Origin: Lachnospiraceae bacterium
GTDB taxonomy: Bacteria; Bacillota; Clostridia; Lachnospirales; Lachnospiraceae
Reading direction: 5' to 3'
Length of the DNA stretch: 45,637 bases
NCBI GenBank assembly: GCA_030537215.1
Contig: JAUNOF010000001.1
Span: 37,227 to 82,863 of the forward strand
Below are positions 1-12,072 of this stretch, piece by piece (within the stretch, counting starts at the first letter, position 1; every line of letters begins with the position of its first letter). The position numbers and the translations under genes were made by a program. The notes under the pieces are model-generated. The model searched no databases and was not told the origin of the DNA. It saw only the letters and a list, made by a program, of their open reading frames with translations.

Positions 1-918
1 GTTTTCCTTACCCGCCAGGTCCTTTGCCTTTCTTCCAGAGCCCTCTTTCTTTTTTCCGGACTTTCCTCCCGGAAGCAAAAGCCCTGCCAGAATTGCCGCC
101 GCAAATGCGGCTGCGCCAAACAGAATCCATTGCGTTGCAGTAAAGCCGTTTCCCTGATCCTCTCTGGGAATATCTGAATTCGCCGGTGCCGGCTTCATCG
201 CTACCTTTTCCTGGTAGTTTCCGTCATAAGGAACCCGTGTTCCCCGAATCAGCATTCGATGGCTGTTGATGCCATATGGCGTACAGGTAACTAAAGTTAC
301 ATAATCCTCCCCCTCTGTTATGGACAAGCCATCCAATTCATGAGGAAGGACAACCTGGATCTGATCGATCTGGTATTCCAGAATCTCATTTAAAACTTTC
401 AGATAGAAGATATCCCCCTCCTCCAGCCGGTCCAGATCCGTAAACAGTTTGGCTGATGGAAGTCCCCTGTGTCCAGTCAGGATCGCATGAGTACCAGGGC
501 CGCCTACCGGAAGGGAAGAACCTATATAGTGGCCTGCCGCAACCTGAAGCACACTTTCGCTGGTTCCGTGATAAATCGGGAGATTGACCTTGATCGCCGG
601 AATCCGAATGGCTGCCATAATCCCGGAACCGCCTGCATTCAAAAGCTCCTCATAGGGACTGTCTTCTTTTTTCTGCTCCGTATCCGCAGCCTCTGCCAAA
701 TTGGAAAACCCGGCCAGATAGGCATTGTACTCCTGCGCAGCTGCAAGCTCATTGGAATAATCCGCTTCCTCCATCTGCTCAACGGCCTGGTCATAATCTA
801 CGATTACCCTGGAGGCGTTCTTTTCATTCACATAGTTGCTGACAGATGGATAAAGCAGGATGGAAAGGCCTGTGAGGAAAATCAAGACAATCAATAAATT
901 TGCAAGTTTTCGTTTCAT
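1..918 (-). CDS. srtC: Class C (pilus) sortase, C-terminus cut by window edge
   Basis: This is a membrane-bound transpeptidase that would polymerise the pilins encoded just upstream. The frame is open from the ATG at 918 to base 1 (306 codons), so the last residues are missing. Residues 8-24 form an N-terminal membrane segment. The catalytic His150 lies in TGHRG. The core TLVTCTPYGINSHRMLIRG carries Cys212 and Arg220, as in class C pilus sortases. An SPY motif near residue 88 sits where these enzymes carry their active-site lid (usually DPY/DPF/DPW), so the usual Asp is shifted by one. A second hydrophobic segment (about 250-285) followed by a Lys/Arg-rich tail is typical of the class. It is the last visible gene of the minus-strand pilus operon, 94 bases after the backbone pilin. 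The family call is secure; substrate assignment comes from position. Confidence 0.95.
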   Translation of the reverse strand, partial: MKRKLANLLIVLIFLTGLSILLYPSVSNYVNEKNASRVIVDYDQAVEQMEEADYSNELAAAQEYNAYLAGFSNLAEAADTEQKKEDSPYEELLNAGGSGIMAAIRIPAIKVNLPIYHGTSESVLQVAAGHYIGSSLPVGGPGTHAILTGHRGLPSAKLFTDLDRLEEGDIFYLKVLNEILEYQIDQIQVVLPHELDGLSITEGEDYVTLVTCTPYGINSHRMLIRGTRVPYDGNYQEKVAMKPAPANSDIPREDQGNGFTATQWILFGAAAFAAAILAGLLLPGGKSGKKKEGSGRKAKDLAGKEN

Positions 919-1012: not shown

Positions 1013-2779
1013 TTACGCTTTTTTTCTTCTCACGATGAAAAATACTGCCCCTGCCATCAGGATAATGCCTGCTGCGTAGAAGATGGTGGTACCCATGCCG
1101 CCGGTGGACGGAAGCTGTGCGCCGGTCATGTTCACAATGCCCAATGCATAAACAGCCCCTGGGGTATCTAACGTTACAACATAATTCCCATCTTTATCTT
1201 TTGTTGTCTGATCTCCTATGCTCCAAGTTGCTGTCTCATTGCCATCTGTAACACTATCTGGCAGATCACACGCAATTTCAACCGTAATATTATCTGCTTT
1301 ATTATATCCAGCCGGAACTCCAGTCTCTTCGATTGTATAAACACCTGCGCCTAATCCGCCGAAGGTCAGCTTGCCATCCGCTCCAGATGTGGCAACCATT
1401 TTAACTGGAACGGATACCTTCTCTGTGCTGGTTGCAGTCTTTTCTATATAGGTTACATCAGGATTTACATAATATTCCTCTGTTTCCTCTTCTGGTTTAT
1501 CCTCTGTATAGGTGCCATCCTTCAACAGATAATATGTGCCATCAGCAGAAACTTCATAATAGGTTCCGCCCTTTAACACAGTCTGCTGAGATGTTCCGGT
1601 TAAGGTGAATTCGGCTCCTGGTAATACCTCCCCGCCTTCCTTGGTCTTCGTAATCTCAATTTCAGCAACATATGTAATCGTGATATCCTCCGGAGATATT
1701 CCGGTGGGCACATTACCATCCGGCTTGCCCGGTTGTTCATCATCCTCTCCAACTTCATCAGAATTTGGATTATTGGAATATATTAAGGTAACCTTGTTGT
1801 CATTACCCTTTTCGCCAATAACTGCATCTGCATTCACCGTAGCGGAATACGTTACCAGAATCTCCTTCCCAGAAGCATAAGCTTTGATATTGGCAAATGC
1901 AACCTGGAAGGTCTTGCCATCCGCATCAGCTCCTGTGTATAAATAGTAATCCGTACCCTCAGTCAGTTCCTTCCCATCTACGATAACTGTAACATCATTG
2001 TTAAAGGTTAATCCATCTGACAATTTATCGTTAATTACGTAGAAATATTTGTCATAGCCGGTATAATCCGGAACTTTGCCTTTAATTTCATAAGATACTA
2101 CCTGACCGATGCCTGCATGGTTAGTATCAACTCGATCGGATCCCTCTACAATTTTCTTTTCAACTGTTGGTGTTTCTGCCTTCACTTTTGTAGTTACATC
2201 GGCCACAACCTGCAGAATATATCTGCTGTACGCATCATTTTCAGGAAGATTGGCCGTTGTTTCTTTAACCAGGTAATAGCCTGCTGTTAATGGGGAAATT
2301 TCATATCCGGTTGTGACTGCGCCGTTTTTTATCTCTGTGCTTACCGTTCCAGCCCCGGTTACAACATCTGCAATAACATCTGCAAAGGCTTGAATAACCG
2401 CACCGTCCTTCTCTTTTCCAGTCAGTGCAGCTGCAACGTCTGCTGCAGATGCATCATCCGCAAGAGCGATGATTTCCGGATCATCCGCCAGTCCATCTGC
2501 TGCCTTTAGCTTCTCAATTAAATTATCGGCATTAATTCCATCGCCCCACTCAATATTGGACAGCACTTTTGATTCTGTTTGGTTTTCTGTCTTTACCAGC
2601 AGGTCGCCTTTGAAGATCTGATATGCCGTATATTCATGTCCAGATTTATCACTCTCCAGCGTAATTGTAAAATTACCCTGACCCTTTGCGGTTGTTTCGT
2701 CTGCAAACGCAGTCCCCGTCATACTCAGCACCATAATCAGCGCCAGCAGCAGACTGGCAAGTTTTTTAATTCGTTTCAT
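1013..2779 (-). CDS. LPXTG-anchored backbone (major) pilin with isopeptide domains
   Basis: This 588-residue protein is the likely shaft subunit of the pilus. Residues 1-26 are a Sec signal peptide ending in AFA. Residues 30-200 form a first Ig-like domain. From about 205 (VEKKIVEGSD) to 370 there is a fimbrial isopeptide-formation D2 type domain; its Lys pair is the likely pilin-motif region used for polymerisation. From about 370 to 530 lies a SpaA/Cna-B domain containing the E-box TIEETGVPAGY, whose Glu catalyses the internal Lys-Asn bond in this family. The sorting signal LPSTG begins at 556 and is followed by a hydrophobic stretch and RRKKA. It sits between the tip adhesin and the sortase, the usual backbone position. 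A cell-wall protein with similar domains that is not polymerised is possible but unlikely next to a class C sortase. Confidence 0.93.
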   Translation of the reverse strand: MKRIKKLASLLLALIMVLSMTGTAFADETTAKGQGNFTITLESDKSGHEYTAYQIFKGDLLVKTENQTESKVLSNIEWGDGINADNLIEKLKAADGLADDPEIIALADDASAADVAAALTGKEKDGAVIQAFADVIADVVTGAGTVSTEIKNGAVTTGYEISPLTAGYYLVKETTANLPENDAYSRYILQVVADVTTKVKAETPTVEKKIVEGSDRVDTNHAGIGQVVSYEIKGKVPDYTGYDKYFYVINDKLSDGLTFNNDVTVIVDGKELTEGTDYYLYTGADADGKTFQVAFANIKAYASGKEILVTYSATVNADAVIGEKGNDNKVTLIYSNNPNSDEVGEDDEQPGKPDGNVPTGISPEDITITYVAEIEITKTKEGGEVLPGAEFTLTGTSQQTVLKGGTYYEVSADGTYYLLKDGTYTEDKPEEETEEYYVNPDVTYIEKTATSTEKVSVPVKMVATSGADGKLTFGGLGAGVYTIEETGVPAGYNKADNITVEIACDLPDSVTDGNETATWSIGDQTTKDKDGNYVVTLDTPGAVYALGIVNMTGAQLPSTGGMGTTIFYAAGIILMAGAVFFIVRRKKA

Positions 2780-2844: not shown

Positions 2845-5800
2845 TCAGGAAGATGCGGTTTCCTCCTTTCTGCGCTTTTTATTATACAGAAGAGAGGACA
2901 TGGAGCCTGCCATCATCAGCAGCCCTCCCATTGTATACGGAAGGATACCCCGGCCTCCTGTTTCAGGAAGCTCTATATAGGCTGAATTCACAATCGTATT
3001 CTCCTGCCCGTTGTCCCAGACGCTTACAGTTCCGTCTGGAGCCGTCACCGTTACCGTAAGCACATCATAAGCAACTGCAGCATGGTACGTATTCTTATTT
3101 GCCATATATCCATCCGGCACCTTGGTTTCTGTAAGTATATATTGATGTCCGGAGGGAATCCTTTCAAAGTGAACGCTTCCATCTGCTCCAGAGCTCCGTG
3201 TCATATCCTGGATAGCAACGCTTGTACTTCCATCCCCTCGGCAAATCGTACATTTGCTTGCATCATGGCTTAAGGTAAATTCAGCCCCGCTTACGTTCCG
3301 TCCAAAAGAATCGGTCTTTTTGAATTTCAATTCTGACAAATATCCTTTTACAGACGGAATTGGGAACTCCATTGTCTTAGGATCAGAAATCACAACATTT
3401 CCATTCTGGCTCTCAACATACCGATAATTCAGGGTCGTGGTATCATTGGTGGGATAAATGTTCTCCTCAAGGAAGCTTTCTTTCTCATTTTTCAATCGCA
3501 CCCGGTATACCAACTGATACGTATACGTGGTAACATTTCCTGACGTAGTACTCTGATAGCCTGAATTCTTTAAATCCCAGCTTATGGCGGAATCATCATT
3601 CTGGAAAACCGCTGTATTTTCTCCGCCCGGCACATTGGTACCTGTCAGATTTTCCCCAACTAATTGGGGAGCCTTATCATAAAAGCCTATGAATTCTACG
3701 GTGTCCGCCGAGCCATTTATGGTTGGAATAGGATCTCTGGATACCCAGTCAGCTTTTGAACCTGCTTCAATCTGTTCCTTGATTTTCTCGAAGATCTGCT
3801 CATATGCAGAATTCAATCCGTCATAATTGGTGCTGTCATAGTAATGTCCCGAACCAATCTTATTTCCCAGCCAGTTTTTATAGGATTCCAGGCTGCTGGC
3901 ATTTCCAATCTCATAGGAGGTGCCAGAACGGTCTACTACTGAATAACCATTTGCATCTTCACTTTGCTTAATGAACCGTTGAAGTGACTGTCCTCCCACA
4001 TCCACGCCGATGGAGAAAATCTCAACACCGGAATTTTTAATTGCTGTAGCCATTTTTCGTGCGCGGATTGCAGCTTCATCACTGTAGCTGGTTCCATAAG
4101 TGCATGGTTTGTTCAAAACACGATCTTTAAATACGGTTCCTCTTGAATCATAAGTGTCATATCCTACGTATCCGTTTTGAATGTAGGTAGTGGGAAACCC
4201 GTCACTTAAGAAAATAATGTATTTATTTTTGTTGGAAGCCCTGCTTATCATATCCGAAGCCATCTTCAATCCTGCTTCTATATTGGTGAACCGCTTATGG
4301 GACTCTCCATACCCATTTCCATTGATGATGTTTCCCGTTTTTGTCCGCATGGTATTTTTCAGCTGGTTTACGGTCTGCTCCGAACAAGCCTGCAAACCAA
4401 AAATTTCCTGGGCATCGGTATTGAAAGCCACGTAGCCGACTCTGCTGTTACCTGAATTGTTCTTTGCAAACGTGTCAAGGAAACGCTCTGCTGCATCCAT
4501 TGCCGCATAATAGCGGGTCACACCGCCAAAATCACTGGTCATGGTATTGGAAATATCCATCACGATCACAACCGCCATATCCGGATCCTTATAAATTTCA
4601 GATATCTTCGTCTGCGTCTGCACCTTTAATGTAATATCAAACACATTCTCCAGTTCCGTTCCGGCAATGGTCTTGCTGACCGTAACATTTCCTTCTCCGC
4701 TCCTGCTTCCGCCCCGGTCCGCAACCTGCTGATCGGACGTGACCGCAGTTCTTTCCATTCTGCTGTCCGCGGAACTTAGCATTGCCTTCTGCATAACTGC
4801 CTGACTCATGGGCTTTGAAGCAATGGCCATATCATCTTCCGGATCTTCTGGCTCCTCTGAAGCTTCAAAATCCTCTGAAGCATCTGCATATTCGCTGTAT
4901 TCTTCAAACCAGCCGCTGTCCCGCAGTTCGATCCAATTGCTGCCATAGGAAGGCTCCGCAAGGCTGTCAACACTGCCATAAAGCAGCGTATACAGCCGCA
5001 TATGCAGCTCCGCATACTCCTCTTCCTTTAGCTCTTCATTGCTGAACGCCTCATTCAAACGCTGCAGCACCTCTTCCACGGCTGCGCGTACCTCATCCTC
5101 CAATTCCCCTGGTACAGCAATCTGTGCCTCCAGAGCCTCGATTTCTTTCTTAAAACGCTCATATGCAGAATTGGGCTCCTCCTCCGCAGGTTGGTCGGAA
5201 ATCTCAGCCAGCACATAAACGGAAAATTGATCCGTCTCCACCACTACTGCATGTTCTTCCTCCAGAGAGCATGTGATTTCATTGACCTGAAGCTGGGGCT
5301 CGTCTAAATGATAAACCCGGATTTCCTTTCTTTCCGGCTCAGTCTCCTGATGGTTCTGGCTTACCTTTGCCTCCCGGCTCTCTTCCTCTGCTTCCGGCTT
5401 TGTCTCAGCTTCTTTATCACCGTTTTCTTCCGGCAGACAATCCGTTAACGTTACATCATCAAATTTTACACGGACCAGATCCAGAAGCTCTGTTTCTTCT
5501 TCGTCTGCAAGCAACATAAGCTGCAGCGCCCGGTAGCATGTGATGGATATGTTTTCTTCCTCAGCCTGTTTTCCCAACGCTTCCGCCACCTGCTGCTTTT
5601 GTTCCTCATCAAGATCCGAAACCTGAAGCTTCAACGCTTCCGCTTCCGGGAAGGAAGACATGGGACCTTCAACCGTAACCATCCCCTGGTCAAGGTTTCC
5701 AGATAACTTAATCCGCCCTTCACCTGTTATCTCAAACCAGAAGCCCTGGGTTGAAATAAAGGATTTTTTATGCCATTTTCCTGTAGCGGTTACTTTTCCA

Positions 5801-7068
5801 TAGTACCTGCCAGGTTTTGTATCTCTAGCTGCTTCATACAGACAATTAATCCACCCGATATCCTCTGCATCTTTTAGACGGCTGGGTCTGAATCTGCGGA
5901 AGCGGGCTCCATATACGGTCACTTCATAAGAAACCCGGGAAGCCTCAATATACATGGCCTGATCCGTATAGTTGGCCTGAGTTTCCTCTTTGTCTGCTTT
6001 TGATGGACTGGCAATCCGTCCATCCCGTAAATCAATTTCATCACGTTCTGCATTGGAAGAAGATGCTTTCCGCTTAGCCTGAGAAGGAGATGCGGCATCG
6101 TCAACAGTTGTAATCTGCTCCCGGTATTTTTCTTCCCGCTCTTCCTGCTTTTTCTCATCCCAATCATCCAGATACCAGCTTGGCTCAGTCATCCAGATAT
6201 TCATTTCATTCTGAACTCCGGCCTCCAGCTCTGTACCGCCTGCTAACTCCAGGCTGACATAGGGCATTCCTATTCCGTAATACCATTTTTCTGAACTGTT
6301 AATGCTCCGGCTTTCACCTTCTCCTTTAAAAATAAATTCTACCGAGGCTTTCGCCATCTCGGCATCATCATCGGTGTAAAAAGTGAATTGGACGGGATAA
6401 AGCTCTCCAGAAAGCAGACAGATTCCATCTAATACACTGCTGTCCTCTTCCTCATCTTCACTTCCGAATTCCCGTTGGAACTCCTTCTGTTCTGCAGCCT
6501 CCTGTTCATCCTCTGACAGCTCTTGGGCGGCATCTGCATCTGTCTCAGATTCCGTGGTTATCGCCTCTTCTGCAGTTTCCTGATCGCGATTTTCTTCCTC
6601 TAATTCCTCCGCTGATTCTTCCATTCCACTGCTGAGTCCATCATCTCCCGGCCCTGTCTCTGCTTCTTCTAAGGATACGAATCCTGCGTTTTCTTTTTGA
6701 ATATAACGGCTTTTAAATTTCAGAACACCGTCGGTAATATCTTCCTCCGTATTGTTTTTCAGATAAAGAGTCAATTCTGTTTCGTTTCCCGGCATGATCT
6801 CGTTATCATTCGCAACAATATAGATATCAACATCCTTTTTTTCTCCCTGACGATACCTTGCATTGCTGGCTGTCGCCCACCGGGAACCATTACCAGATTC
6901 ATCTGTATCCTCCGCTGCGAACACATTTTTTCCGGTTCCATACAGCAAAGATACGTTCAATACCATCGATACAATCATGATGAATACCAGCATCCCGGAA
7001 ATGCGTTGTCTCCACAGCCTTATATTCGATTCGGATTTGTATCTGTGCGCAGATCTTCTGCCCTCCAT
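2845..7068 (-). CDS. Large VWA-domain pilus tip adhesin, LPXTG-anchored
   Basis: This 1407-residue surface protein is the probable tip adhesin. A long basic start and a hydrophobic segment (26-45) end in VFAA, a Sec signal. A Glu-rich low-complexity stretch spans about 130-215. A VWA domain covers about 832-1100, with the metal site read as D838-I-S840-N-T842, a Thr replacing the last Ser of DxSxS. A Cna-B domain covers about 1245-1363 with the E-box YILTETKVPDGY. LPETG begins at 1368, followed by a membrane segment and KKRRK. The central region (215-800) matches no family I recognise and carries repeated AS(P/S)S(N/Q/K)A linkers near 325-360. The start has a purine-rich ribosome site (AGGGGGGGAAGT) just before the ATG. 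It lies 26 bases after the small upstream gene and 65 before the pilin, so it is co-transcribed. Confidence 0.92.
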   Translation of the reverse strand: MEGRRSAHRYKSESNIRLWRQRISGMLVFIMIVSMVLNVSLLYGTGKNVFAAEDTDESGNGSRWATASNARYRQGEKKDVDIYIVANDNEIMPGNETELTLYLKNNTEEDITDGVLKFKSRYIQKENAGFVSLEEAETGPGDDGLSSGMEESAEELEEENRDQETAEEAITTESETDADAAQELSEDEQEAAEQKEFQREFGSEDEEEDSSVLDGICLLSGELYPVQFTFYTDDDAEMAKASVEFIFKGEGESRSINSSEKWYYGIGMPYVSLELAGGTELEAGVQNEMNIWMTEPSWYLDDWDEKKQEEREEKYREQITTVDDAASPSQAKRKASSSNAERDEIDLRDGRIASPSKADKEETQANYTDQAMYIEASRVSYEVTVYGARFRRFRPSRLKDAEDIGWINCLYEAARDTKPGRYYGKVTATGKWHKKSFISTQGFWFEITGEGRIKLSGNLDQGMVTVEGPMSSFPEAEALKLQVSDLDEEQKQQVAEALGKQAEEENISITCYRALQLMLLADEEETELLDLVRVKFDDVTLTDCLPEENGDKEAETKPEAEEESREAKVSQNHQETEPERKEIRVYHLDEPQLQVNEITCSLEEEHAVVVETDQFSVYVLAEISDQPAEEEPNSAYERFKKEIEALEAQIAVPGELEDEVRAAVEEVLQRLNEAFSNEELKEEEYAELHMRLYTLLYGSVDSLAEPSYGSNWIELRDSGWFEEYSEYADASEDFEASEEPEDPEDDMAIASKPMSQAVMQKAMLSSADSRMERTAVTSDQQVADRGGSRSGEGNVTVSKTIAGTELENVFDITLKVQTQTKISEIYKDPDMAVVIVMDISNTMTSDFGGVTRYYAAMDAAERFLDTFAKNNSGNSRVGYVAFNTDAQEIFGLQACSEQTVNQLKNTMRTKTGNIINGNGYGESHKRFTNIEAGLKMASDMISRASNKNKYIIFLSDGFPTTYIQNGYVGYDTYDSRGTVFKDRVLNKPCTYGTSYSDEAAIRARKMATAIKNSGVEIFSIGVDVGGQSLQRFIKQSEDANGYSVVDRSGTSYEIGNASSLESYKNWLGNKIGSGHYYDSTNYDGLNSAYEQIFEKIKEQIEAGSKADWVSRDPIPTINGSADTVEFIGFYDKAPQLVGENLTGTNVPGGENTAVFQNDDSAISWDLKNSGYQSTTSGNVTTYTYQLVYRVRLKNEKESFLEENIYPTNDTTTLNYRYVESQNGNVVISDPKTMEFPIPSVKGYLSELKFKKTDSFGRNVSGAEFTLSHDASKCTICRGDGSTSVAIQDMTRSSGADGSVHFERIPSGHQYILTETKVPDGYMANKNTYHAAVAYDVLTVTVTAPDGTVSVWDNGQENTIVNSAYIELPETGGRGILPYTMGGLLMMAGSMSSLLYNKKRRKEETASS

Positions 7069-7094: not shown

Positions 7095-7292
7095 CTATGA
7101 TTCACTTTGATTGTTTTGATCAAAGCCATATTCACTTGCCTCCAACGCGGTGTCCATCAGCTTAATCAGCTCCAGCATGCTCCTGAAGCATCTGGTGTCC
7201 GATCGGTTCAGCCAGATCACCTGTCCCTGCCATGTAGAATTTTCCTGACTACTGATATGTATTATAAAGGTTTCTTTCATTGCCGCTCTCAT
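7095..7292 (-). CDS. Small unknown protein with TWQG motif, in pilus operon
   Basis: A 65-residue protein of unknown function. I chose the ATG at 7292 because GGAGGG lies 8 bases before it; the open frame extends further upstream only as a shadow of the regulator gene. Its first 44 bases overlap the regulator's 3' end in another frame, which suggests translational coupling. The core is ETFIIHISSQENSTWQGQVIW, followed by a helix FRSMLELIKLMDTALE. It has no signal peptide and no membrane segment, so it should be cytoplasmic. From memory, similar small proteins with a TWQGxxxW core and a following RSALELIKL-like helix occur beside such regulators in other Lachnospiraceae; this recollection could not be checked here. 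Position suggests a role in controlling the operon rather than in the fibre. Confidence 0.75.
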   Translation of the reverse strand: MRAAMKETFIIHISSQENSTWQGQVIWLNRSDTRCFRSMLELIKLMDTALEASEYGFDQNNQSES

Positions 7293-8559
7293 TTCTGTCT
7301 CCCTCCATAATGGAACTTTCCACCGTATATACAGCAAAGCTAACTGCTGCCCTTCTTTTTTGAATTCCCTTCCATCTGTTTTCAAGACGGCTGATGATCG
7401 TTGGACTATCTTCCTGATCCGCTCCCACCAGCAGTACCAGAAATTGATTGGCGCTGTAGCGGGTATATACATCTCCGCTTCTAATTCCGCCTGCCAAAAC
7501 CTGACGAAACAGCTCCATTTCCGGCTCTGACCGTTCCCAGTTTTGCTGTTCTTTTGTCTTCTCTGAATTTTCCGGTTTTCCCCGTCTTTTCTCAGTCTGT
7601 GTCATCTCCGGTACGTCTATGGTGCAGATCATAAGCAGACTTTTTATCCCAGTCCGTTCTTCAAGCCGGGATATCACATGGTAGATATCCAGAAAACTAG
7701 GATAGCTGCAGCAATACGGTCCCTGAACTTCCCCATTCTCTCGAAGCCGATCCATTACATTTACTAAAGCATTAGCTGCATAATAAAACTGTCCGCCGGC
7801 GCTTCGATAGCGACTCATCACCTGGTCATTTACAGAGATTCCCAGTTCATCATAAAACATTTGTGCTGCTTCTTCATAGATTTTCATCGCCTCCTGATAC
7901 CGGTTCATGGACATCAGGCAGTCGATCTGCATCTCCTGCCATTCATCGTAGGGATGCATCTGACTTGCTGCTGTGCACAGCTCCAGCATCTCCTCATAGC
8001 TGCCTTCCATCTTCAAAATTTCACATAATTGTTTTAAGCATTTAAAGTACAAGTTTTGATAATATGCGCTTTCCACATTTACCCATTCTTCGCCGTTCAG
8101 CATGGGAAGAAACTCGCCTGTATAGATCCGGCAGAATTCCATCAGCAGCTCCCGGATTCTCCCCCGATTCTCCTCGGACCTGTTTTGAATGAATGGAAGG
8201 AGCTGATCCAACCTTCCGGTATCGGTTTCCACCTGATAATCCAAGGTAAAATAGTAGCGTGATCCCTTTAAAACAATGTAATTGCCTGGCGGAAAGCCTG
8301 CATTCTGGATGGCACGGCGGAGAAGGTATACCTGCTGGCGGAAATTGTTGATCTGCCGTTTCCAGTCATAGCAGTTACGCTGAAAGGTATCCACCAGCTC
8401 CTTCCGCTCGATCCCGTCACTTCCTGCCTTGATCAGCTGAAGCATAAGCTGCATGGTCTTCGTCTGAAGCCGTATTGGAATGGTAAGTTCCTGAGATTGA
8501 AAATATAGAACAAATCCACCTAACATTCTGGCATAAAAACCCTTATATGGATGATGCAT
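7249..8559 (-). CDS. BTAD/SARP-type transcriptional regulator with degenerate GGDEF-like C-terminus
   Basis: A 436-residue cytoplasmic regulator that probably controls the pilus operon it heads. The ATG at 8559 is preferred to the upstream ATG at 8622 because AGGAGGAG lies 9 bases before it and nothing similar precedes 8622. Residues 1-95 read as a winged-helix DNA-binding domain of the OmpR/SARP type. Residues about 110-260 form the helical repeat BTAD domain (YYQNLYFKCLKQLCEIL ... HPYDEWQEMQIDCLMSMNRYQEAMKIYEEA). Residues about 290-415 resemble a diguanylate cyclase fold: a beta strand SLLMICTIDV, then RSGDVYTRYSANQFLVLL, in which the GGDEF position reads SANQF (369-373), so catalysis is not expected. 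Its final codons overlap the next gene. Confidence 0.85.
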   Translation of the reverse strand: MHHPYKGFYARMLGGFVLYFQSQELTIPIRLQTKTMQLMLQLIKAGSDGIERKELVDTFQRNCYDWKRQINNFRQQVYLLRRAIQNAGFPPGNYIVLKGSRYYFTLDYQVETDTGRLDQLLPFIQNRSEENRGRIRELLMEFCRIYTGEFLPMLNGEEWVNVESAYYQNLYFKCLKQLCEILKMEGSYEEMLELCTAASQMHPYDEWQEMQIDCLMSMNRYQEAMKIYEEAAQMFYDELGISVNDQVMSRYRSAGGQFYYAANALVNVMDRLRENGEVQGPYCCSYPSFLDIYHVISRLEERTGIKSLLMICTIDVPEMTQTEKRRGKPENSEKTKEQQNWERSEPEMELFRQVLAGGIRSGDVYTRYSANQFLVLLVGADQEDSPTIISRLENRWKGIQKRRAAVSFAVYTVESSIMEGDRNESGNERNLYNTYQ

Positions 8560-8629
8560 CAAATCAAGCTCCTCCTCTTGTGTGACATGATCATGTGATA
8601 TCAGCAAGATGTAAAAATGCATTATTTTG

Positions 8630-8653
8630 TCAACAAAGGTATACGTTAGTTGA
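8630..8653. promoter_or_regulatory. 24-bp imperfect palindrome, copy 1 (upstream of pilus regulator)
   Basis: The element begins TCAAC and ends GTTGA around a palindromic centre GTATAC. It matches copy 2 (8776-8799) at 19 of 24 positions. It lies about 70 bases before the regulator start, downstream of the candidate promoter. It is a likely operator, with the neighbouring BTAD regulator as the simplest candidate ligand; that is inference. Confidence 0.6.
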
Positions 8654-8750
8654 CAGATGATGAATGGGTTAATTATAAGGTGAATTTTCAGATTTCTTTT
8701 TCGAAAAGTATATATTATCTATTTATATAGGAATAAGTGCGGTTTTTTAG

Positions 8751-8779
8751 AAAATACGACAATAAAAAATGACCATCAA
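8751..8779 (-). promoter_or_regulatory. Candidate promoter of the pilus operon
   Basis: On the minus strand TTGATG (8779-8774) is followed after 17 bases by TATTTT (8756-8751), each matching 4 of 6 consensus bases. The -35 lies inside the second 24-bp palindrome. The start would leave a leader of about 180 bases containing the first palindrome. The region is very AT-rich, so chance matches are possible. Confidence 0.4.
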
Positions 8780-8799
8780 CCAAAGTATACCTTGCTTGA
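8776..8799. promoter_or_regulatory. 24-bp imperfect palindrome, copy 2
   Basis: This has the same length and architecture as copy 1: TCAAC at the left, GTATAC in the centre and CTTGA at the right. The centres of the two copies are 146 bases apart, close to 14 helical turns, so both could face the same side of the DNA. It overlaps the -35 of the candidate pilus-operon promoter. Confidence 0.6.
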
Positions 8800-9033
8800 C
8801 ACTTTGGGACAGCCAAATAAAAATCTTTACAAGTACTATATCATATCAGGCATTAAAAAAAGCATTTCATGTGCTGATAAAATTACAATTTTTTTAATTT
8901 TTTTGCTTTTCCTATCACGCACACAGAAGGTTTCCATTTACGAAACAGCGTTTTCCATAAATGAAACCTATCTTGTCCGGAGAGCTTTTTGCTGCATGGA
9001 AAACGTCAATGAAGTTTTCTTCCATCTAAAAAA
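8800..9033. other. AT-rich intergenic stretch with inverted repeats
   Basis: I see no convincing gene here. The 92-codon frame at 8792-9070 has no ribosome site and its sequence looks random. The stretch holds an imperfect inverted repeat at 8928-8969 (outer arms AGGTTTC and GAAACCT, with ATTTA/TAAAT inside). A weaker repeat of ATGGAAAAC with GTTTTCTTCCAT spans 8996-9025. Confidence 0.5.
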
Positions 9034-9060
9034 GCCGGAAGCTGCAAAGCAGCCCCCGGC
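9034..9060 (-). terminator. Intrinsic terminator after the TRAP operon
   Basis: The stem GCCGG..GCTGC pairs with GCAGC..CCGGC. On the minus strand it is followed by a run of six T, about 80 bases after the dctM stop. On the plus strand it is followed by TCTTTT, so it could work both ways. Confidence 0.85.
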
Positions 9061-9141
9061 TCTTTTATAGGGAATCAGCATTAAGATAAAAACCTTAAGC
9101 AACATTTCAGAAACGCCTCAGCGCTCCTGCAAAAAATAACA

Positions 9142-10452
9142 TTATACGTAGCCCATCAGGCCCGGCAGCCACAGGGACAGCGCCGGTATATAGGATACCA
9201 GCATCAGCACCACAAAGATGGCCGCAAAGAATACCAGCAATGTCTTGATAACATTCTCTATCTTCGTCTGTCCTACCTTAACACCTACAAACAAGGTGGT
9301 TCCTACAGGAGGCGTAATGGTACCGATACACAGGTTGAAGATCATCATAATACCGAAATGAATGGTATTCATGCCCAGCGCCTGGCAGATCGGCAGGAAA
9401 ATCGGGGTGAAGATCAGACATGCAGGCGTCATGTCCATGAAGGTACCGATGATCAGAAGCAGCACATTGATGATCAGCAGGATCACATAACGGTTGTCGC
9501 TGATGCCCAGCATAGCCTGAGAAACTGCGGTAGGGATTCCGGTGAACGCCATTACCCAGCTCATGATACTGGATACGCCGATCAGGAAGATGATAATACC
9601 GGTCATTTCTGCACTGTCCATAAAAATCTTCGGCAGCTCGGAAGGCTTGATGGACTTATAAAAGAACACGGAAAGCACCAGACTGTATACTACGGCTACT
9701 ACGCTTCCTTCGGTTGCAGTGAAAATACCGCTGATAATGCCGCCGATTACGATGATGATCATTAACAGACAAGGAATTGCCTGGAAAAACACTTTGACTC
9801 TCTCGCTCATGGTATACTTGGCAGTACTGCGGTATCCCCGCTTCTTTGCAATAAAGAAGATGACGATCATACAGGCCAGACCCCAGAGGATTCCTGGTAT
9901 ATAACCGGCCATAAACAGAGCTGCCACGGAGGTTCCTCCGCTGACCAGGGAGAATGTGATCATAACGTTGCTTGGCGGGATCAGAAGTCCTGTAGGCGCT
10001 GTAGCAATATTAACAGCCGCAGAGAAATCACGGTCATAACCTTCCTCTTCCTCAATGGGGCCGATAATGGAACCCATAGCGGAAGCGGCTGCTGTACCAG
10101 AACCGGAGATGGCGCCGAACAGCATGTTTGCCACTACGTTGGTGTGAGCCAGCGCGCCAGGAATGCTTCCGGTAAACAGCTTTGCAAAATTAATCAGACG
10201 GATGGCGATACCGCCCTTATTCATCAAGTTTCCTGCCAGAATAAAGAACGGGATTGCCAGCAGGCTGAATACGGAAATTCCGGAGAAAATACGCTGTGCG
10301 CCGGTCAATACGGCAGCTCCGGTATCCAGGATCGGAAGAATCGCTGCGATGGAGGATACTGCCAGTGCAACTGCGATAGGCACGCCTGCCAGCAGCATAA
10401 CCAGCAGGACAACAAAAATAATGCATCCGCAAAATACAGCTATTGTACTCAT
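9142..10452 (-). CDS. dctM: TRAP transporter large permease (DctM type)
   Basis: This 436-residue protein has about a dozen hydrophobic segments throughout and is the ion-coupled transport subunit of a tripartite (TRAP) importer in the cytoplasmic membrane. Family-typical stretches include GVPIAVALAVSSIAAI near the start, GAISGSGTAAASAMGSI around 115-130, TGLLIPPSNVMITFSLVSGGTSVAALFMAGYIPG around 155-190, and FGIMMIFNLCIGTITPPVGTTLFVG near the C-terminus. Its ATG overlaps the dctQ stop by 4 bases (ATGA), so the two are translationally coupled. It is the last gene of the operon before a terminator. Length fits the family (about 425-440). Substrate cannot be read from this subunit. Confidence 0.96.
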   Translation of the reverse strand: MSTIAVFCGCIIFVVLLVMLLAGVPIAVALAVSSIAAILPILDTGAAVLTGAQRIFSGISVFSLLAIPFFILAGNLMNKGGIAIRLINFAKLFTGSIPGALAHTNVVANMLFGAISGSGTAAASAMGSIIGPIEEEEGYDRDFSAAVNIATAPTGLLIPPSNVMITFSLVSGGTSVAALFMAGYIPGILWGLACMIVIFFIAKKRGYRSTAKYTMSERVKVFFQAIPCLLMIIIVIGGIISGIFTATEGSVVAVVYSLVLSVFFYKSIKPSELPKIFMDSAEMTGIIIFLIGVSSIMSWVMAFTGIPTAVSQAMLGISDNRYVILLIINVLLLIIGTFMDMTPACLIFTPIFLPICQALGMNTIHFGIMMIFNLCIGTITPPVGTTLFVGVKVGQTKIENVIKTLLVFFAAIFVVLMLVSYIPALSLWLPGLMGYV

Positions 10453-10952
10453 AATCTGGCCTCCCCCTTCTCATCAAATGATTTCTGGAACATGACAGCT
10501 GCATTCATCAGGCTGAATATCATGATCAAAACGCCGGTAATCGGCACAATCACGTAAATATAACCCATGGGAACCTGCAGAGAGGCGGTTTTCTGGATCA
10601 TAGTCAGCTTGGTAATAGAAATACCGCCGTACACCATAACAACGGCTGCCAGAGCAAAGGTCATCAGATCAATTATAATTTCCAGATATTTCCTTGTCGT
10701 TCCGGTCAGATTATCTGCAAGGAATCCCATTCTCATATGATCACGTTTGCCGAACACATATGCGGAAGCCAGCAGCGCCATCCAGGTAAAGCTGTAGGTT
10801 AAAAGCTCCTCAGAAACGGTACTTGGACGGTTAAAGAAGTAACGGGTCACAATCTGATAGGTTCCGATTACCGTCATCAAAACAAACAGCGCCACGATAA
10901 TAACGCCCAGCACCTTCATAATGGCGGCACGAATCTTATTCATCGTCTCCAT
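10449..10952 (-). CDS. dctQ: TRAP transporter small permease (DctQ type)
   Basis: This 167-residue protein has four hydrophobic segments and is the small membrane subunit that pairs with DctM and helps dock the binding protein. The ATG at 10952 (METMNKIRAAIMKVLG) is chosen because AAGGGGGG lies 8 bases before it; the open frame begins at 10979, but that start would overlap dctP and has no ribosome site. The start lies one base after the dctP stop and the end overlaps dctM by 4 bases. Family-typical residues include TVSEELLTYSFTWMALLASAYVFGKRDHMRMGFL around 45-80. Confidence 0.93.
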   Translation of the reverse strand: METMNKIRAAIMKVLGVIIVALFVLMTVIGTYQIVTRYFFNRPSTVSEELLTYSFTWMALLASAYVFGKRDHMRMGFLADNLTGTTRKYLEIIIDLMTFALAAVVMVYGGISITKLTMIQKTASLQVPMGYIYVIVPITGVLIMIFSLMNAAVMFQKSFDEKGEARL

Positions 10953-10953
10953 A

Positions 10954-11979
10954 TTAATTGCCCCCCTTTGCATTCTCATTTACAAGCTGAATATGATTGT
11001 AGAAATCTACGATTGCAGGATTTTCCTCCAGCATCTGCTGATGCAGAGGAAGAACCTTCTCCTTAAAGGCATTGACATCTACCTCTAAAAACTGGACGCC
11101 CATGTCATTCTCCGCAATCTGCTTTGCTTCCTCGATACTCTTATCCCACTCTTCCAGCTCTACTTCTGTAGAAATGGCTGCGGCCTCCTTAAATACAGCT
11201 AATTCCTCGGCGCTTAAGCCATTTAAAAACTTCAGATTTGCCACCAGCATATCCGGCACCATCTGGTGCTTGTTGTAGCTGTAATACTTGGCAACCTCAC
11301 CGTGCTTATTGTTGGTCAGCGCCAGCTCATTATTCTCAGCACCGTCGATTACGCCCTGCTGGATTGCCGTATAAACCTCGCCAAAGCCCATAGGCGCTGC
11401 CGCCGCGCCGAAGGTATTTACCATATTTACACTGGCCGGGCTCTGCTGAACACGGATCTTCTTGCCCTTTAAGTCGTCCGGTGTATTGATGGGAGTCTTG
11501 GCGTAGAAGTTTCTGGTACCTGCATTGTACCAGGTGACTACGCGGAAACCAGCCTCATCGGTGGACGCATAGATATTTTCCATGTACTCGGTTTCCATCA
11601 TCACTTCTTTGTAGATCTCTTCTGAATCAAACAAGTATGGCATACTGAAGATTTCATACACATCCGCAAAAGTCTCCAGGTTCGCAGTACCTGCCACTAC
11701 AAAATCGATCGCGCCTGTCTGAGTCAGCTCAATGGCTTTCTGTGCGGAGCCTAACAGCTCATTGGGGAAGATCTCCACCTCATACTTATCGCCAAGCTTT
11801 TCTTCTACATACTCTTTAAACGCCAGCAATCCCAGATGCTCCGGGTGCGTTTCCGACTGTGCATGGGAAATACGAATAATCCGCTTTCCGTCGGTCAATG
11901 AGCCACATCCAGACGCAGAGATCACGGTGGCTGCCGTCAGCACTGCCACCGCCAGCTTTTTCCCTAACCCTCTCACCAT
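10954..11979 (-). CDS. dctP: TRAP transporter solute-binding lipoprotein (DctP type)
   Basis: This 341-residue extracytoplasmic solute receptor feeds the DctQM permease. I start at 11979 (MVRGLGKKLAVAVL) because AAAGGAA precedes it and a lipoprotein signal follows directly, ending SASGC; the frame runs up to 12048 through a duplicated leader segment that looks untranslated. Family features include RISHAQSETHPEHLGLLAFKEYVEEKLG, the FPNELLGSAQKAIELTQTGAIDFVVAG block, and RNFYAKTPINTPDDLKGKKIRVQQSP with the Arg that usually contacts the substrate carboxylate. The ligand is therefore probably an organic or sugar acid, but it cannot be named. It is the first transporter gene, 382 bases downstream of the YesM/YesN pair, which probably controls it. 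Confidence 0.94.
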   Translation of the reverse strand: MVRGLGKKLAVAVLTAATVISASGCGSLTDGKRIIRISHAQSETHPEHLGLLAFKEYVEEKLGDKYEVEIFPNELLGSAQKAIELTQTGAIDFVVAGTANLETFADVYEIFSMPYLFDSEEIYKEVMMETEYMENIYASTDEAGFRVVTWYNAGTRNFYAKTPINTPDDLKGKKIRVQQSPASVNMVNTFGAAAAPMGFGEVYTAIQQGVIDGAENNELALTNNKHGEVAKYYSYNKHQMVPDMLVANLKFLNGLSAEELAVFKEAAAISTEVELEEWDKSIEEAKQIAENDMGVQFLEVDVNAFKEKVLPLHQQMLEENPAIVDFYNHIQLVNENAKGGN

Positions 11980-11991
11980 TTTTTCATTTCC

Positions 11992-12022
11992 TTTCATCTG
12001 TTTACCCGTTTTTTCCGGGTAT
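11992..12022 (-). repeat. Leader hairpin repeat, copy 1
   Basis: This is one of two near-identical segments (31 and 30 bases, differing by one T) just before dctP. Each contains a short hairpin, ACCCG and CGGGT around an A/T loop. Between the copies a second hairpin pairs CCGGGTAT with ATACCCGG. The copies sit in the probable dctP leader next to its ribosome site. Confidence 0.8.
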
Positions 12023-12042
12023 ATAGGGATACCCGGAGGGTG

Positions 12043-12072
12043 TTTCATCTGTTTACCCGTTTTTCCGGGTAT
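12043..12072 (-). repeat. Leader hairpin repeat, copy 2
   Basis: Second copy of the segment at 11992-12022, starting 51 bases away. The duplication creates a longer open frame in front of dctP and explains why a naive start call would fall at 12048. Confidence 0.8.

Follow-up and report, generated by a model that had tools for sequence, protein, structure and literature searches.

A likely cwpV-type invertible terminator in the leader of a BTAD pilus-regulator gene of Lachnospiraceae

Introduction

In a Lachnospiraceae genome, two similar palindromes stand between a transport gene cluster and the gene for a BTAD-domain transcriptional regulator that heads a pilus locus, raising the question of what such a pair does. 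A preliminary description of the sequence read them as a paired operator, possibly acting through DNA looping, that could place the pilus under phase or on/off control. Here, we analysed the window (the whole stretch of DNA under study, 45,637 nucleotides) together with related genomes, and we consider it likely that the two elements, named E1 and E2, bound a cwpV-type invertible terminator switch in the leader of the BTAD pilus-regulator gene. That inversion in some form is the function of the pair, with the terminator and promoter versions of such a switch taken jointly, appears very likely.

Results

Two near-palindromes lie in the predicted leader of the regulator gene

The 24-bp palindromes were found where they had been described, at 8630-8653 and 8776-8799 with a centre-to-centre distance of 146 bp, and have 19 of 24 bases in common when read on the same strand and 20 of 24 when aligned as inverted repeats. 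The true element is longer, a near-palindrome of 28 bp (8628-8655 and 8774-8801) with the consensus TGTCAACYAAAGTRYACTTTRGTTGACA, and a degenerate palindrome pattern matched four times in the window, counted strand-wise, where shuffled sequences would give 0.05. Both elements are located in the intergenic region upstream of the minus-strand regulator gene. Their 6-bp core, GTATAC, is itself palindromic, so that the polarity of the window sites rests on the arms. The features of the locus, listed in the direction of transcription, are as follows.

8835 to 8868, minus strand: predicted regulator promoter, outside the invertible segment, with a conserved GAAATGCTTT box and an extended −10 TGATATAGT
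8774 to 8801, minus strand: E1, predicted promoter-side recombination site, TGTCAAGCAAGGTATACTTTGGTTGATG in gene orientation, conserved at sister loci
8764 to 8815, minus strand: predicted intrinsic terminator of the present orientation, a hairpin at 8770-8815 (E1 and its flanks) and then TTTTTT at 8764-8769
8656 to 8773, minus strand: spacer between E1 and E2, predicted invertible segment of 118 bp
8628 to 8655, minus strand: E2, predicted gene-side recombination site, TGTCAACTAACGTATACCTTTGTTGACA in gene orientation, inverted relative to E1
8568 to 8578, minus strand: ribosome-binding site AGAGGAGGAGC, containing AGGAGG, ahead of the probable start ATG
7249 to 8622, minus strand: open reading frame of the BTAD-domain transcriptional regulator (Pfam BTAD, E = 1.8e-12)
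2845 to 7068, minus strand: VWA-domain tip pilin, first structural gene of the downstream pilus operon (VWA_2, GBS104-like Ig, SpaA)
1013 to 2779, minus strand: LPXTG backbone pilin (GramPos_pilinBB, SpaA, Gram_pos_anchor)
1 to 918, minus strand: pilus sortase gene, running past the left edge of the window (Sortase, E = 3.7e-25 on L165:7081-8145)

The probable start of the regulator is Met22 of the listed reading frame (ATG 8557-8559) rather than 8622, and its relatives align from about residue 15-30 onward. The gene is followed in order by the VWA tip pilin, the LPXTG backbone pilin, the sortase and a further pilin. As estimated from the sequence, regulator transcription would start near 8828; with the family promoter lying farther upstream at 8835-8868, both elements fall within the predicted transcribed leader. 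Residues 374-427 of the regulator weakly matched a SiaD diguanylate cyclase model (E = 0.0007, below the cut-off), and this C-terminal stretch may be a degenerate domain. Upstream of the switch, the TRAP transporter genes dctP-dctQ-dctM lie within 9032-12048 on the same strand, with a strong terminator-like hairpin near 9032-9067.

The element pair recurs ahead of BTAD genes within one genus

The BTAD regulator is one of 4-8 paralogues per genome in one Lachnospiraceae genus, whose named relatives include Candidatus Caccovicinus merdipullorum. The palindrome motif occurred in 6 of the 11 genus genomes, in which a reversed control pattern had no match; a sample of 346 genomes from other Lachnospiraceae genera yielded no occurrence. 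At related loci the elements lie nearly always ahead of BTAD regulator genes, which supports reading them as a conserved, functional pair tied to this regulator. We collected 14 well-formed pairs, most of them directly ahead of a BTAD gene and some at contig ends. Start-to-start spacing was 145-147 bp, with G008 (158-159 bp) as the exception, and the spacer measured 117-119 bp at 12 of the 14 loci and 130-131 bp in one species.

The usual order in gene orientation is promoter, E1, a spacer of 117-131 bp, E2, ribosome-binding site and start codon. At most loci the conserved promoter, consisting of the GAAATGCTTT box and an extended −10 of the form TGnTATAMT, lies 30-44 bp ahead of E1; the extended −10 motif was present upstream of E1 at 12 of 14 paired loci and on two more promoter-side contigs. 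Downstream genes at several loci encode large surface proteins (VWA, SpaA, FctA, DUF7601) and a signal peptidase or sortase, a gene content consistent with one regulator per surface structure.

Several loci depart from this plan. Three of them (G004:C1, G005:C98 and G007:C73) carry a single site and no spacer and, judged by sequence, resemble what a deletion would leave behind; with a symmetric core, deletion would be possible besides inversion. At L007 (G000:C228, 1-1611), a BTAD gene has half an element on its 5′ side at the contig start and a full element pair lacking a promoter on its 3′ side, and contig G007:C20 breaks in the same second element, an arrangement suggestive of a rearranged switch. 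At L058 (G005:C163, 6121-6148), a CpsB-Wzz-kinase exopolysaccharide operon beside dnaJ is preceded by a perfect element that has a flanking hairpin and a T-run of its own, and the matching position on G004:C29 has a BTAD gene and no element. A search for a partner element beside G005:C163 and G006:C192 found none. Within the spacers little is conserved other than CCACTT boxes. At eight loci (L007, L051, L052, L053, L057, L065, L067 and L068; L066 in part) these boxes point the same way and occupy spacer positions 34 and 95/96; they are absent from the window spacer and are possibly accessory recombination sites.

Site cores match in inverted orientation

Site-specific recombination demands an identical crossover region, whereas operators do not. 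The central 6 bp of E1 were the reverse complement of those of E2 in 13 of 14 pairs, compared with 63 of 182 mismatched-locus comparisons, and 100,000 permutations never yielded as many matches. Asymmetric cores are inverted between partners, for example GTACAC with GTGTAC and CTATAC with GTATAG, and over the central 12 bp the inverted alignment was better than the direct one in 12 pairs, with two ties (p = 0.0005). This match in inverted orientation, kept even where the core varies, argues for inversion sites rather than operators. Read at the sequence level, the locus family is thus one of paired inverted sites in a conserved architecture with complementary cores.

The predicted terminator depends on orientation

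E1 is also the core of a predicted terminator hairpin, which in the window has a computed folding energy of −16.9 kcal/mol (z −3.2) and is followed by UUUUUU. When the spacer was flipped in silico, with the exchange placed at the site centre, the terminator score was stronger as assembled than after inversion at 13 of 14 loci (p = 0.0002). Five loci have an extra terminator-like hairpin within the spacer (−5.7 to −12.2 kcal/mol) in the assembled orientation, and none of these loci had one in the inverted orientation. The on/off control proposed in the preliminary description is likely.

Assemblies contain broken sites and both junctions at sister loci

Eight contigs end within an element, against 0.13 expected from rounded contig counts and approximate element numbers (P about 2e-12). 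One contig of the window's own genome (G000:C172) extends across the promoter as far as E1, within which it ends, and another (G000:C195) starts in E2 and continues into a BTAD gene. The counterpart region in G007 is unbroken, with an upstream side 96% identical, so that the two contigs represent a single locus split in two and lacking its spacer; an assembler faced with a population of mixed orientation would produce such a break. Two further contigs contain double junctions, G006:C60 reading promoter-E-spacer-E-promoter′ with a perfect 124-nt inverted repeat, and G003:C8 reading gene′-E-spacer-E-gene with a perfect 200-nt inverted repeat and, elsewhere on the contig, a stretch of Ns at that switch. 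These are the paths expected with both orientations present. In sequence terms, an orientation-specific terminator prediction is therewith joined by sister-locus junctions of both orientations.

Contigs of metagenome assemblies can also break for other reasons. The double-junction and site-broken contigs are all at sister loci, and the window contig is intact in one orientation. Class-A (window-type) loci assembled through to the gene likewise all share one orientation, an outcome that a mostly fixed element could also give.

BTAD paralogues whose sites differ in arm sequence carry this same promoter between their inverted repeats. It faces the gene at two loci on G003:C8 and away from it at G002:C92 and C13, as well as, judged by eye, at G009:C126 and G006:C4; invertible promoters are probably present at the G006 and G009 paralogues too. 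More distant BTAD paralogues (L087, L088, L072, L098, L099 and L096) have inverted-repeat pairs with different arms again (GGGGC..., TGTTGCAAAA...) at a spacing of about 130-160 bp.

Alternative readings of the pair

One alternative keeps inversion but places the promoter in the window spacer itself, so that flipping would turn a plus-strand TTGACA/TATAAG toward the regulator. Of the sigma-70-like matches in the spacer this site is the best, and promoter inversion is the arrangement at the G002 and G003 paralogues. The overlap of one palindrome with its −35, noted in the preliminary description, is real (TTGACA 8650-8655, 18 bp, TATAAG 8674-8679), but the site is on the plus strand and, as now oriented, points away from the regulator. 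Among the 14 loci, moreover, the window alone has a strong site of this type in reverse orientation, on which ground it was rejected as the promoter of the family, and the features common to the loci are the upstream promoter and the orientation-specific terminator. We therefore regard an invertible promoter at the window as unlikely.

A paired operator, at which the BTAD or another regulator would bind both palindromes, loop the DNA and repress or activate its own promoter, would agree with long symmetric sites, a near-constant spacing, a position nearly always before a BTAD gene, and arms that vary between paralogue groups as co-evolving binding sites would. Operators, however, have no need for an inverted core match locus by locus, both sites lie downstream of the predicted transcription start, and the contigs broken in sites, the assembled double junctions, the two-way paralogue promoters and the orientation-dependent terminator are left unexplained. 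The spacing by whole helical turns on which looping had been proposed is not kept either, the G008 pairs being 13 bp off the other loci and out of phase. Taken together, these observations make a looping operator very unlikely.

Highly improbable, too, is a fixed attenuator, in which leader RNA hairpins (the E1 terminator, and E2 near the ribosome-binding site) would respond to an RNA-binding factor and the DNA would never invert. E1 and its flanks do make a terminator at most loci, and the elements are within the predicted leader. A selected RNA stem, though, would be expected to favour G-U over A-C at asymmetric palindrome positions, and the counts were 16 and 14 with no bias, for which reason an RNA hairpin as the sole function was rejected; nor does attenuation account for paralogue promoters that themselves lie between the repeats in both orientations, or for assembly junctions of both orientations. 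Finally, a MITE-like small mobile or repetitive element with palindromic ends that landed before BTAD genes by chance would be multi-copy and short with terminal inverted repeats, as here, but can be dismissed as next to impossible given interiors with little in common beyond the fixed boxes, a position fixed between promoter and gene, and the lack of copies in the 346 genomes of other genera.

Discussion

A model for the proposed terminator switch

In the terminator-switch reading that we prefer, E1 and E2 would be inverted sites for a tyrosine-type site-specific recombinase, and the 118-bp segment between them would flip in the 5′ leader, between the fixed promoter at 8835-8868 and the ribosome-binding site at 8568-8578. 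In the assembled orientation, E1 and its flanks would form an intrinsic terminator and transcription would end short of the regulator (OFF). Recombination within the central 6 bp would replace the spacer side of the hairpin and remove the U-tract (ON), and the regulator would then turn on the pilus operon. We infer that inversion takes place at the window locus itself. The assignment of OFF and ON is the least certain step of this reading, and the BTAD regulator would act as an activator of the pilus operon.

Relation to known switches

The cwpV switch of Clostridioides difficile has 21-bp imperfect inverted repeats that bound a 195-bp segment in the 5′ leader, a promoter upstream of the left repeat, no promoter or coding sequence in the segment, and an intrinsic terminator proposed at the left repeat in the OFF-orientation transcript (PMC2784873, PMC5386303). 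The present locus resembles it in the promoter outside the segment, the inverted repeats in the leader and the predicted OFF-orientation terminator, and differs in having 28-bp near-palindromic sites, a 118-bp segment, a BTAD pilus regulator rather than a wall protein as the gene, and several switch copies per genome. The flg switch of C. difficile, which is RecV-dependent and has 21-bp imperfect repeats around a 154-bp segment in the 5′ leader, acts after transcription initiation, its OFF state being Rho-dependent and located after a c-di-GMP riboswitch (PMC5386303, PMC7446863). The present segment would likewise be a short invertible leader segment that acts past initiation, whereas the flg OFF state depends on Rho and an intrinsic terminator is predicted here.

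In fimS of E. coli and the gut invertons of PhaseFinder, a promoter between inverted repeats is flipped by a recombinase (PMC11892184). This arrangement is shared by BTAD paralogues in G002 and G003 and probably by others in G006 and G009, whereas the class of the window keeps its conserved promoter outside the segment. No report of the site motif turned up in the text searched; the PhaseFinder survey also lists unpublished Firmicutes_A motifs. The controlled gene resembles SARP/BTAD-type regulators in encoding a BTAD-domain protein, and the literature searched yielded no BTAD regulator under an inversion switch. The switch is most likely of the known cwpV kind, its use on pilus regulators being a new variant.

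This reading predicts that a little-studied gut Lachnospiraceae genus, represented mostly by metagenome-assembled genomes, switches its sortase pili stochastically through transcription regulators, each genome having up to several switches that act independently. Terminator inversion of the cwpV type, described in C. difficile, would gain a close parallel in this genus, a single regulator family would allow terminator and promoter inversion to be compared, and the site motif offers a direct handle to find and genotype switches in metagenomes. More tentatively, we speculate that the switches might form a genus-wide combinatorial phase-variation regulon, in which a small recombinase family flips many switches, each governing another BTAD regulator and pilus or surface locus, in two architectures (terminator and promoter inversion), and in which deletion, which near-palindromic sites would permit, can lock a switch permanently.

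Candidate recombinases

An XerC/D-like family would supply the recombinase, candidates being the four XerC/D-like tyrosine recombinases, of two subfamilies, encoded on contig C91 of the window's genome. Homologues occur in 10 of the 11 genus genomes; the only genome without them, G001 (assembly about 84% complete), is also without the sites. One homologue is directly upstream of a BTAD switch at G003:C8. G004 has seven elements and a single member of the family, which makes its recombinase a good first candidate. Across the 11 genus genomes, no single subfamily of tyrosine recombinases tracked the class-A sites exactly, and four genomes have XerC/D-like recombinases and no class-A sites.

No near-palindromic inverted-repeat pair was found flanking the C91 recombinases. 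On recombinase-bearing contigs, 40-bp near-palindromes with a AAGTATAC or GAGTATAC centre (L147 13192-13231, L162 2501-2540 and L157 903-942) occur singly, with no partner found. The four C91 recombinases (L147 86-5861) surround a gene for a choline-binding-repeat protein (1084-2691, minus strand), which is perhaps another phase-variable surface gene.
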